A DNA stretch of 64,000 nucleotides from Kaistella treverensis (GTDB taxonomy: Bacteria > Bacteroidota > Bacteroidia > Flavobacteriales > Weeksellaceae): contig NZ_FORQ01000001.1 of NCBI RefSeq assembly GCF_900114045.1, positions 744,001 through 808,000 of the forward strand, read 5' to 3'. Within the stretch, counting starts at the first letter, position 1. Every line of letters starts with the position of its first letter. This document shows, piece by piece, positions 56,616 to 60,354 of this stretch. The translations under genes were made by a program, and so were the position numbers. A model generated the notes under the pieces. That model was not told the DNA's origin. It worked only from the letters and a program-made list of their open reading frames with translations, and searched no databases.

Positions 56616-58106
56616 TTATTCGTCTGTATAATCAGGAACCGGGCCTGCCGGAACCGGATAAACTTCGGTAAAGCAACCAAAACAATGGTTAGAGCTACCC
56701 AAAATTATTTTTAGATTCTCCATGCTCAAAAATTCCAGCGTATCAACGCCTAAATACTGTCGCAATTCTTCTACACTCATATTGGCTGAAATCAAATCGT
56801 CTTTCGAAGGTGTATCAATTCCCAAATAACATGGGGCTATAATCGGTGGTGAAACGCTTCGGAAATGAATCTCTTTTACCCCTGCTTCTTTCAGAATTTT
56901 AACCAAACGTTTGGAAGTCGTGCCACGAACGATTGAATCATCAATTATGACGACGCGTTTGCCTTTAATTTCAGAAATAATTGGATTTAATTTCAGGTTA
57001 ACAATCCGCTCGCGCATTTCCTGCGTGGGAACGATAAAGCTTCTGCCGATGTACCGGTTTTTAATCAATACCGGACGGAATGGAATTCCCGATGCGATTG
57101 AAAAACCGATTGCCGCAGGAACACCGGAATCCGGTACGCCGATGACAATATCTGCCTCAACCGGTGCCTGTTCCCAAATTTTAGCTCCGGATCTTTCCCG
57201 GATTTCGTGAACATTAATACCTTCCATTACCGAATCGGGTCGCGCAAAATAAATATATTCAAAAGCGCAGATTCTTTTTTCGCAGTTTTCCTTCACCAAA
57301 AAGCTGTGCAAACCGGTTTCGTTTTCGTTGGTATACACAATTTCTCCCGGTAAAATATCTCTCACGTACTGCGCTCCGACGGCGTCTAAAGCTACAGATT
57401 CAGAAGCTACAACATAAGTTTTCTCATCAATTGCACCTAAAACCAGCGGGCGAATCCCGTGAAAATCACGGAAAGCAAAAAACTTATTCCGTGTCATACC
57501 GACAACGGAATAAGCGCCTTCAATTTTTTCCATTGTGGTTTTAATTGCTGCACGTAAACCTAAATCCAGGTTTTTCTGGATTAATCTTAAAATAACTTCG
57601 GAATCGGAAGTCGCCTTGAAAACAACACCTTCAGCTTCCAGTTCTTTTTTCAGCTCGTAAGCATTGGTGAGATTACCGTTGTGCGCAATAGAAAGAATAA
57701 TCTGATCATATTCGTTTTTGGCGAAAAATGGCTGAAAATTATATTTCTTTTTGTCGCCGGCGGTCGTATATCTGGTGTGCCCGATGGCAGAATTTCCCAT
57801 AAAAGTTTCCGGGTGGCGGATGTCTTTGTAGACATCGAGCACCAAACCTTCGTCTTTAATATTGAAAATTTTGCCGTGATTCATCACAGAAATTCCGCAC
57901 GCTTCCTGACCGCGGTGTTGCAGCGCGAAAAGCCCAAACTGCGAAAGCGAAAAAGTATCGACATCATTATCGGAATAAAGCCCGAAAATTCCGCATTCCT
58001 CCTGCGGAGCATCGAACGGATCTTCTTTTTTTAAGATATTCCGCTCGTAGACATGGTCTTTAAAATGGTTTAAATAATCTTCTCTGTGCTGGTGTATATC
58101 TTTCAT
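56616..58106 (-). CDS. purF: Amidophosphoribosyltransferase
   Basis: First step of purine synthesis, making phosphoribosylamine from PRPP and glutamine. ATG 58106 gives 496 residues; a longer frame upstream runs into a hairpin repeat. The nucleophile Cys in EECGIFGLYSDND lies after a ~37-residue leader that would need removal. The glutaminase domain has HRGQEACG and HNGNLTNAYEL, and the PRPP loop is VVIIDDSIVRGTTS. It is separated from purC by 48 nt carrying the hairpin repeat. Confidence 0.96.
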   Translation of the reverse strand: MKDIHQHREDYLNHFKDHVYERNILKKEDPFDAPQEECGIFGLYSDNDVDTFSLSQFGLFALQHRGQEACGISVMNHGKIFNIKDEGLVLDVYKDIRHPETFMGNSAIGHTRYTTAGDKKKYNFQPFFAKNEYDQIILSIAHNGNLTNAYELKKELEAEGVVFKATSDSEVILRLIQKNLDLGLRAAIKTTMEKIEGAYSVVGMTRNKFFAFRDFHGIRPLVLGAIDEKTYVVASESVALDAVGAQYVRDILPGEIVYTNENETGLHSFLVKENCEKRICAFEYIYFARPDSVMEGINVHEIRERSGAKIWEQAPVEADIVIGVPDSGVPAAIGFSIASGIPFRPVLIKNRYIGRSFIVPTQEMRERIVNLKLNPIISEIKGKRVVIIDDSIVRGTTSKRLVKILKEAGVKEIHFRSVSPPIIAPCYLGIDTPSKDDLISANMSVEELRQYLGVDTLEFLSMENLKIILGSSNHCFGCFTEVYPVPAGPVPDYTDE

Positions 58107-58112
58107 TTTTGT

Positions 58113-58149
58113 CCTCACCCCAACCCTCTCCACTGGAGAGGGAGTAAGG
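58113..58149. repeat. Short GC-rich hairpin repeat between purC and purF
   Basis: CCTCACCCCAACCCTCTCC, loop ACT, GGAGAGGGAGTAAGG: an eight-base perfect core stem with a longer imperfect one. GC content is unlike its surroundings, and the style resembles dispersed ctcacccc...ggagaggg intergenic repeats known from many bacteria. It could influence purC/purF transcript balance. Confidence 0.65.
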
Positions 58150-58154
58150 TATTT

Positions 58155-58874
58155 TTATTTGTTAAGAACTTTTTTTAATCGTTCGTAAATTTCCACATAG
58201 GCTTCGGTAACTTCACCCAGATCGCGTCTGAAACGGTCTTTATCCAGTTTTTTCATGGTGTCCTTGTCCCAAAGTCTGCAAGTATCGGGAGAAATTTCGT
58301 CGGCTAAAATTATTTTGCCGGAGGAATCTTTCCCTAATTCAATCTTGAAATCGACCAAAATAATATTCATTCCATCAAAAAGTTCAATCAGAATATCATT
58401 GATATCAGAGGTCAATTCATACATTTCATCAAGTTCTTCATAAGTGGCAGCACCTAGAAAAACCGCGTGGTGATCATTAATCAGCGGATCACCGAGCTCA
58501 TCTTTTTTATAGCAGATATCAAAAATGGTAACCGGCGATTTGATGCCTTCAGCAACGCCAAGACGCTGCGCCATGCTTCCGGCAGAATAATTACGCACCA
58601 CCATTTCCAAAGGAATGATGTGCACTTTTTTCACCAGCTGTTCTCTTTCATCAATTTTCCGGATGAAATGCGTAGGAATTCCTTTTTTGTTGAGGTATTC
58701 GAAAATCAATGTCGTTATGGCATTGTTCATTTCACCTTTAAGGTCCACATTTCCTTTTTTCTGTGCATTGAAAGCGGTGGCATCATCTTTAAAACGAACA
58801 ATTACCTCGTTGGGATTATCTGTTTCAAAAACCTGCTTTGCCTTTCCTTCATAAAGCATTGCTCCTTTTGTCAT
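58155..58874 (-). CDS. purC: SAICAR synthetase
   Basis: Phosphoribosylaminoimidazole-succinocarboxamide synthase joining CAIR and aspartate with ATP, 239 residues. Signatures: [12 protein letters not shown] with the nucleotide loop, [34 protein letters not shown] and [32 protein letters not shown] start at the second Met (MLYEGK) is possible. Follows the DUF3307 gene by 28 nt. Confidence 0.97.
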
Positions 58875-58902
58875 TTTTACTTTTTATTAGATTTTATTTT
58901 TT

Positions 58903-59604
58903 TTAAATTTTAACCCATATACCCGTTAAAATTGCTATTCCGAAACTTAACAAGGTTCCAATCAGCACATATTCGGTGAGTTTTCTCTGTTTTGCTTCTG
59001 CCAAATCGCTGAATCTGAAGACTGATTTCGCCGCGATCATAAAACCGACGCCTTCCCAATGATCCACAAGAATAAAAACAAAAACGAGCAGTCTTTCTAA
59101 AATTCCGATGTATTTTCCGGCGTTCACCAGCGATTCCGTCTGTAATTTGCTGTGCTCCACCGGTACCGGCGTCCAAATGGAAATGATGGTTTTTATAAAT
59201 ATTGAAGCTGGTACGGTGAGAAAAATTATCGCCGTTATTAAGCCCAAATTTCGGGAATTTATAAAGTCTTCCCATCTAAAAAACGGAAAATAAGTAATGG
59301 ATAATATCGCAATTACCAAAATATGCGCGGCCTGATCGATAAAAAACCAGTTTCTTTTGGTTTTTGAATTTTGAAACTGAAGTTTTGCCCAATCGATAAG
59401 CAAATGCGAAACACCGATAATTAAAGCAATCCACCATAAATCCCTATCCCAGAGCAAAATATAAGTGAGAAAGGCGTGTATAATTACGTGGAGGTAAAGA
59501 TAAATGCTTTGCCCTTTTTTCCGTTCTTTATCGGCTACCCAAGAATTGGGCTGAAGAATAAAATCTCCTATTAAATGTGCCAATATGAGGGGAATAAAAA
59601 TCAT
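58903..59604 (-). CDS. DUF3307 membrane protein with four His/Asp pairs
   Basis: A 233-residue multi-TM protein (about six segments). In the first 95 residues, four charged pairs spaced i,i+4 fall on successive hydrophobic helices: H10/D14 (AHLIGDF), H39/H43 (HVIIH), H67/D71 (SHLLIDWAK) and D90/H94 (DQAAH). This would fit a metal site inside the membrane. The C-terminal third is HWEGVGFMIAAKSVFRFSDL with a final helix. The family has no known function. The stop of satD immediately precedes its start codon, so the two are translated together. Confidence 0.78.
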   Translation of the reverse strand: MIFIPLILAHLIGDFILQPNSWVADKERKKGQSIYLYLHVIIHAFLTYILLWDRDLWWIALIIGVSHLLIDWAKLQFQNSKTKRNWFFIDQAAHILVIAILSITYFPFFRWEDFINSRNLGLITAIIFLTVPASIFIKTIISIWTPVPVEHSKLQTESLVNAGKYIGILERLLVFVFILVDHWEGVGFMIAAKSVFRFSDLAEAKQRKLTEYVLIGTLLSFGIAILTGIWVKI

Positions 59605-60210
59605 TTATAGTTCGGCGATTTTCTTTCGAAAGAATTGGTCGGTTTCCTGTAGCAAATCGAAGTTCGCCCTTTTAAGCCGCTGGCTGACTGATGATTGCGT
59701 GATATTCAGCGCTTTGGCGAGTTCGTCCTGTGTAAGCGCGGGATTCACTAAAAGTTGATGGATGATTTCTGCGGTTGCGGCTGTCCAGTTGTCAAAATCG
59801 ATTGCCGCCCATTTGAACAAAATATTCAGATCGCGGTTAACTTTGTCGTTTTCGGTTTGTATTGCGAGTGTTTTTCCCTGCGATTTTATTTCCGTGAGCA
59901 ACCTTCCGGAATTTACATACGCAGAACCGTTGGATTCTGTAATTTTTTCAGAAAGAAAAACCTCATTTCCAATACCGATTGCAAGGCGGACATCCAGATT
60001 TTCAAAAGTTCTGATGAGTGATTTTAGCAATAGTGCTTTGCGGAAAACTTCGTCCACGCTGCATTTCAGCTGAAATTCATCGCCGCGGTAAATTTCCCAA
60101 TTTTCGGGGCTTTCGGACCAGCTTGCCATCAAATCTTTCAGTTTGGGCAGCCAAAGTTCCGAATCGGACATTTGGGAATTAATGATGTCACCGGTAATAA
60201 TTGCAATCAT
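59605..60210 (-). CDS. SatD-family protein: cyclase-like domain plus helix-turn-helix
   Basis: A 201-residue protein matching the SatD family, named after an acid-tolerance operon of Streptococcus mutans and of unknown biochemistry. The N-terminal ~135 residues read like a class III nucleotidyl cyclase / GGDEF-type fold: ITGDIINS with D8, YRGDEFQL with D44 (the two expected metal Asp), then VRLAIGIGNE and NGSAYVNSGRLL. The C-terminal part is a helix-turn-helix, LTQDELAKALNITQSSVSQRLKRANFDLL (about 160-188). It should bind nucleotide and DNA; catalysis is uncertain. Four identical operators lie upstream. Confidence 0.78.
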   Translation of the reverse strand: MIAIITGDIINSQMSDSELWLPKLKDLMASWSESPENWEIYRGDEFQLKCSVDEVFRKALLLKSLIRTFENLDVRLAIGIGNEVFLSEKITESNGSAYVNSGRLLTEIKSQGKTLAIQTENDKVNRDLNILFKWAAIDFDNWTAATAEIIHQLLVNPALTQDELAKALNITQSSVSQRLKRANFDLLQETDQFFRKKIAEL

Positions 60211-60214
60211 AAGA

Positions 60215-60222
60215 CAAATATA
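60215..60222 (-). promoter_or_regulatory. Probable -7 box of satD, overlapping operator copy 1
   Basis: Reverse strand TATATTTG, five bases before the satD ATG at 60210. It overlaps the first operator (60219-60239), so a bound regulator would block it. No clear -33. Confidence 0.5.
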
Positions 60223-60343
60223 AGCAATTCTCCTAATAAACTGAAAATATAAGGTTTTTACCTAATAATTTTTAACTGGATGAGCTTTTAAAATATAAGC
60301 TAAATTACTAATAAATTGTAATTATAAGCAAAATAACTAATAA
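60219..60343. promoter_or_regulatory. Array of four operator-like repeats upstream of satD
   Basis: Four exact copies of TATAAG-N8-CTAATAA: 60219-60239, 60248-60268, 60294-60314 and 60323-60343. The outer hexamers TATAAG and CTAATA are near-inverted (TATWAG against its complement), so each copy is a pseudo-palindrome for a dimer. Starts are spaced 29, 46 and 29 bp. They fill the purL-satD gap and do not appear elsewhere in the window by eye. Copy 1 overlaps the satD -7 box. Most likely bound by SatD's helix-turn-helix or another local regulator. Confidence 0.8.
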
Positions 60344-60354
60344 CAAAATTAAAA

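Follow-up and report, generated by a model that had tools for sequence, protein, structure and literature searches.

SatD of Kaistella treverensis very probably binds its own promoter and controls it together with the membrane-protein gene behind it, as judged from sequence comparison. The explanation that best fits the data jointly, at a probability of about 0.83, is that four palindromes in front of satD act as SatD binding sites, and that SatD covers this array and represses its own operon, satD-DUF3307. The computational evidence comprises the array itself, its conservation and spacing, the co-change of the SatD recognition helix with the half-sites, the overlap with the -7 box and the linkage to DUF3307. 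The window analyzed is the whole stretch of 64,000 nucleotides, and the positions of its relevant features are collected in Table 1.

Table 1. Features of the satD locus, in window coordinates.
Feature	Positions	Strand	Sequence or remark
purC	58155..58874	-	next after the DUF3307 gene
DUF3307 membrane protein gene	58903..59604	-	directly after satD
satD	59605..60210	-	N-terminal GGDEF/class III cyclase-like domain and C-terminal HTH (PF16264)
SatD recognition helix, residues 172-181 (QSSVSQRLKR)	59668..59697	-	from the AlphaFold model; tracks the half-site
satD -7 box	60215..60222	-	TATATTTG; begins 12 bases before the ATG
operator 1	60219..60239		TATAAGCAATTCTCCTAATAA; outer TATA belongs to the satD -7 box
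operator 2	60248..60268		TATAAGGTTTTTACCTAATAA
operator 3	60294..60314		TATAAGCTAAATTACTAATAA; follows the 46-bp step
operator 4	60323..60343		TATAAGCAAAATAACTAATAA

A probable operator array confined to satD

The initial annotation had claimed four exact copies of TATAAG-N8-CTAATAA with starts 29, 46 and 29 bp apart, and these were recovered at the positions in Table 1, all within the 144 bp that separate purL from satD. Searching the 2.38-Mb genome with the exact pattern gave four matches, every one of them before satD, and none for the backward control. The relaxed pattern TATWAG-N8-CTWATA returned the same four satD places only, and single-mismatch versions of the operator occur as scattered singles. 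On the question of random abundance, the exact motif thus proved to be confined to satD rather than scattered over the genome. Chance repetition was rejected on the basis of shuffles, genome-wide counts and control windows. A larger SatD regulon was likewise rejected, as clustered sites are absent elsewhere in the genome and the relatives show stray single matches only.

The underlying element is the palindrome TATAAG-N8-CTTATA, and the family consensus, TATAAG(C)-N6-(G)CTTATA, is perfect. The earlier description of a near palindrome therefore applies to the copies in the window, whose CTAATAA 3' arm is a one-base departure specific to this species. The regular spacing that had been noted is borne out by continuous 28/29-bp series in other species, while the 46-bp step is a lineage detail: it is common to part of the genus Kaistella, and many relatives have an unbroken 29-bp succession.

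Conservation and spacing across satD loci

SatD proteins were collected from Bacteroidota (105 of 392 genomes, plus further ones), three plasmids and four viral contigs. Upstream regions were taken for distinct SatD proteins, mostly from Bacteroidota (279 regions), and the viral contigs were handled separately. An array was called when at least two palindromes with one common half-site lay 27-30 bp apart. By this measure the motif type precedes orthologous satD genes in 254 of the 279 regions, compared with 36 after shuffling, in agreement with the conservation that an operator reading had led one to expect. A score of at least 30, as a rule three sites, was reached by 204 of the 279 regions; among the controls, no open frame of the window (0 of 56) and only one of 278 windows lying further upstream at the same loci scored as high. 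All 35 same-genus relatives examined carry satD, almost all with TATAAG-N8-CTTATA palindromes upstream, and in 36 Kaistella genomes nearly all of the matches listed are located at satD.

Within the permitted range of 27-30 bp, neighboring sites are separated by 28 bp in 288 pairs, 29 bp in 242 and 27 bp in one, so that 530 of 531 spacings are 28 or 29 bp. A palindrome span of 20 was enriched 12.5 times outside Kaistella/Chryseobacterium. The half-sites differ between clades (TATAAG, TATTAC, TGTTAC, TATCGG, TATCGT, TATTCC, TTAGCC and others) within a constant frame, mostly TAT followed by three variable bases. The half-sites are 14 bp apart within a palindrome and 14 or 15 bp apart between palindromes, with alternating orientation. 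Such an even lattice suggests that neighboring dimers are in contact. As 14 bp correspond to 1.33 turns, the SatD subunits would wind around the DNA.

No array was detected at the threshold in the remaining 25 of the 279 regions, including those of diverged SatDs with a different HTH. The latter (L218, L220, L222 and L227) belong to one Bacteroidota family. Outside Bacteroidota, TTAGCC-N6-GGCTAA palindromes stand before the satD of a Vibrio lentus plasmid, three in number and at intervals of exactly 28 bp. Three of the four viral-contig genes (L356, L358 and L359) have upstream repeats of other sequence, spaced by about 29 bp as judged by eye. No array was seen upstream of the satD on a Sphingomonas plasmid. 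On this plasmid (L236, Sphingomonas insulae), satD-DUF3307 adjoins genes annotated as a Pycsar effector, an adenylate/guanylate cyclase and a TIR protein, which in this one case gives a hint of a defense context. Another genome (G295) has two satD genes, L210 and L214, whose arrays share a half-site in different register (ATCAAC / GTTGAT); the two SatDs may cross-regulate.

The recognition helix changes with the half-site

Mutual information was calculated for 117 representatives sharing less than 80% identity. For half-site positions 4, 5 and 6, the largest excess mutual information of any SatD column was that of residue 177. Co-change was then assessed by parsimony on a tree built from N-terminal SatD residues only, leaving out the DNA-binding domain, with a hypergeometric null. 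Residues 177, 174 and 171 ranked first to third among all columns for co-change with the half-site triplet (p = 2e-7, 2e-4 and 9e-4, values that are approximate because the null treats branches alike and the test uses parsimony). Residue 177 also ranked first or second under four other threshold choices. Variation at residues 172, 174 and 177, and in several settings at 173, follows the sequence of the half-site.

K/R177 goes with C at half-site position 6 (31/37 versus 2/80) and D/E177 with C at position 4 (29/30 versus 17/87), while Q177 accompanies the triplet AAG. The associations are chemically sensible, C6 in the case of K/R177 corresponding to G on the opposite strand. In Flavobacterium-type SatDs with a called half-site, Q172 is found with TATTAC (46 proteins) and R172 with TGTTAC (two), so that the change from Q172 to R172 accompanies that from A2 to G2.

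This co-change indicates that SatD itself is the binder. Another, unlinked regulator could in principle occupy the array, with satD merely its regulated gene, and co-location alone would be compatible with this; nothing specific favors it. Such a regulator would not explain why the half-site changes follow the recognition-helix residues of SatD and not its other columns, and the arrays travel with satD on the Vibrio plasmid and on viral contigs. We therefore regard this alternative as very improbable. Autoregulation by SatD, put forward initially as the simplest reading, is supported by the conservation of the array, its confinement to satD and, as the stronger test, the co-change of helix and half-site, which points to SatD as the protein that binds the palindromes.

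Promoter architecture and operon layout

TAnnTTTG, the box of the primary sigma factor, occupies -12 to -5 in a flavobacterium (PMC9723704). Since the box of satD starts 12 bases before the ATG, the satD mRNA is predicted to be leaderless, with the A of the ATG as its start. A TAnnTTTG beginning 12 bases before the satD ATG was found in 112 arrays. In 97 arrays the center of the box is 10 bp from the center of an operator, and a half-site is then part of the box. In the window the initial annotation had placed copy 1 over the -7 box, and the two indeed have TATA (60219-60222) in common, the box reading from 60222 to 60215 on the minus strand. Its placement of copy 2 on the -33 region did not hold: copy 2 lies just upstream of the expected -33 (about 60243-60246, if the A of the ATG is the start). 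A second -7-like box, TAATTTTG, is present on the minus strand at 60344-60351, just behind purL, and a start from there would lie inside operator 4.

The palindromes might alternatively be RNA hairpins, or a DNA repeat without bound protein, as each copy can be folded into a 6-bp stem with an 8-base loop. With a transcript predicted to begin at the ATG, the array would be transcribed only via read-through. Moreover, an Rfam search gave no match, and the stem changes follow the SatD helix, leaving this explanation with a negligible probability.

With the proximal half-site inside the -7 box, negative autoregulation is likeliest in Kaistella, and we infer repression rather than activation. It is conceivable, but improbable, that SatD binds the array mainly as an activator, the upstream sites recruiting RNA polymerase and the proximal site setting a feedback limit. 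This would suit arrays whose upstream end is 100 bp or more from the promoter, and the many arrays in which no site falls on a recognizable -7 box. TAnnTTTG is missing downstream of the array start in 74 of the 254 arrays and lies within 14 bp of a site center in only 109, so a steric mode of repression is evident in part of the arrays only. Against activation, the proximal half-site in Kaistella forms part of the -7 box, and in Flavobacterium a -7-like TATATTTG sits inside a palindrome (TATTACTTATATTTGTAATA).

The gene order on the minus strand of the window is purL, satD, DUF3307, purC, purF. In 279 of 281 loci the gene after satD is DUF3307; among 116 representative loci, 50 show a 4-bp overlap of the two. 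In all 100 Weeksellaceae loci purC comes after satD-DUF3307, while purL stands in front only in Kaistella (33/35). From the satD -7 box down to 56707 the minus strand contains no TAnnTTTG (region 56616-60222), and purC may therefore share the satD transcript. Expression of purC and purF may thus rely on the satD promoter or on transcription reading through from purL.

Domains of SatD and of its membrane partner

The SatD of the window matches PF16264 over residues 2-186 with 47.3 bits, above the curated cut-off of 29, and is a member of this family. The name of the family goes back to satD in the sat operon of Streptococcus mutans. The AlphaFold model has high confidence (pLDDT 96.8). With the N-terminal domain as query, the top Foldseek matches were GGDEF diguanylate cyclases, class III cyclases and the Cas10 palm, with probabilities of 0.99-1.00 and weak E-values of 2e-3 to 1e-2. 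In a profile search, the RGD motif of SatD was aligned to the GGDEF of DosC, and residues 4-88 to the cyclase Ma1120 (E = 0.01-0.02). GD and RGD motifs are conserved in this domain. D8 and D44, kept in at least 90% of 73 SatD sequences, are a candidate metal-binding Asp pair. N100 and R103 are absent from the conserved columns, i.e. the active-site Asn/Arg pattern is not conserved. No cyclase or GGDEF family model was among the Pfam matches listed for SatD.

A PDB sequence search with the single SatD protein gave HTH matches only. Assignment to the MarR family was rejected, with scores below both cut-offs (MarR_2, 25.9 versus 27; MarR, 19.7 versus 24.6). A known defense protein was also rejected, as PADLOC models were matched only weakly, at the level of the HTH (E = 0.013 or worse). 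The window SatD was unmatched in phage records.

DUF3307 is predicted to be all-helical, with a confident structure model (pLDDT 91) for which the PDB yielded no fold match better than E = 1.8. Conserved H10, D14, H39, H67, D71, D90 and H94 occur in this membrane protein; their pattern is reminiscent of a metal site.

Proposed mechanism

SatD would read the TATAAG half-sites through its C-terminal HTH, using recognition helix 172-181, and would occupy the array most likely as cooperating dimers. When bound to the promoter-proximal site, which takes in the -7 box, it would keep RNA polymerase off the promoter. The satD-DUF3307 operon, and here perhaps purC-purF as well, would be held down by bound SatD. 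The cyclase-like N-terminal domain may respond to a nucleotide or comparable ligand, which would weaken or strengthen binding.

A more far-reaching proposal, offered tentatively and thought rather unlikely to hold in full, is that SatD represents an undescribed class of regulator. Its cyclase/Cas10-palm-like domain would sense (or make) a nucleotide and thereby control a SatD filament on the 14-15-bp lattice. The filament would silence satD-DUF3307 as a widespread, mobile two-gene signaling or stress module with the DUF3307 membrane protein as effector.

Relation to known systems and implications

Its repeated, specific sites at its own promoter place the system, on the sequence data, among autoregulated HTH regulators that have operator arrays. 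Antitoxins of type II toxin-antitoxin operons, such as Xre-RES of Pseudomonas putida (PMC12204516), are likewise autoregulatory repressors with several operators on their own promoter. Common to them and SatD are a small HTH protein whose gene comes first in an operon of two genes, which often overlap, repeated palindromes on its promoter and possible higher-order binding. SatD differs from them in its cyclase-like domain, its 14-15-bp half-site lattice and its partner, since the DUF3307 membrane protein is no known toxin and is not known to be toxic. The likeness to GGDEF diguanylate cyclases, class III adenylate cyclases and the Cas10 palm is one of fold, at weak E-values, and unlike these proteins SatD has an HTH fused on in a single protein of 201 residues. 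Its HTH is weakly similar to MarR/AdcR-type winged HTHs, but the domain order and the N-terminal domain differ. What sets the system apart is its cyclase-like domain, its constant membrane partner, the even spacing of its half-site lattice and a recognition code that can be read.

The initial annotation knew of no described operator for this family. The literature searched, which mostly does not extend to subscription journals, agrees in that no description of SatD DNA binding, of an operator or of a ligand was found. Titles, abstracts and counts revealed no described function of DUF3307, and papers naming the SatD family or DUF3307 are, by title and abstract, not about regulation.

SatD, a widespread family of unknown function, thus gains a predicted operator and a likely mode of action, the control of its own operon. 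Its recognition code of a few residues is readable and includes natural specificity switches. As SatD is tied to DUF3307 as a fixed partner, both families can be studied as one system. Moreover, the cognate operators are legible from the genome and, together with the cyclase-like domain, would offer a direct route to the ligand of SatD.
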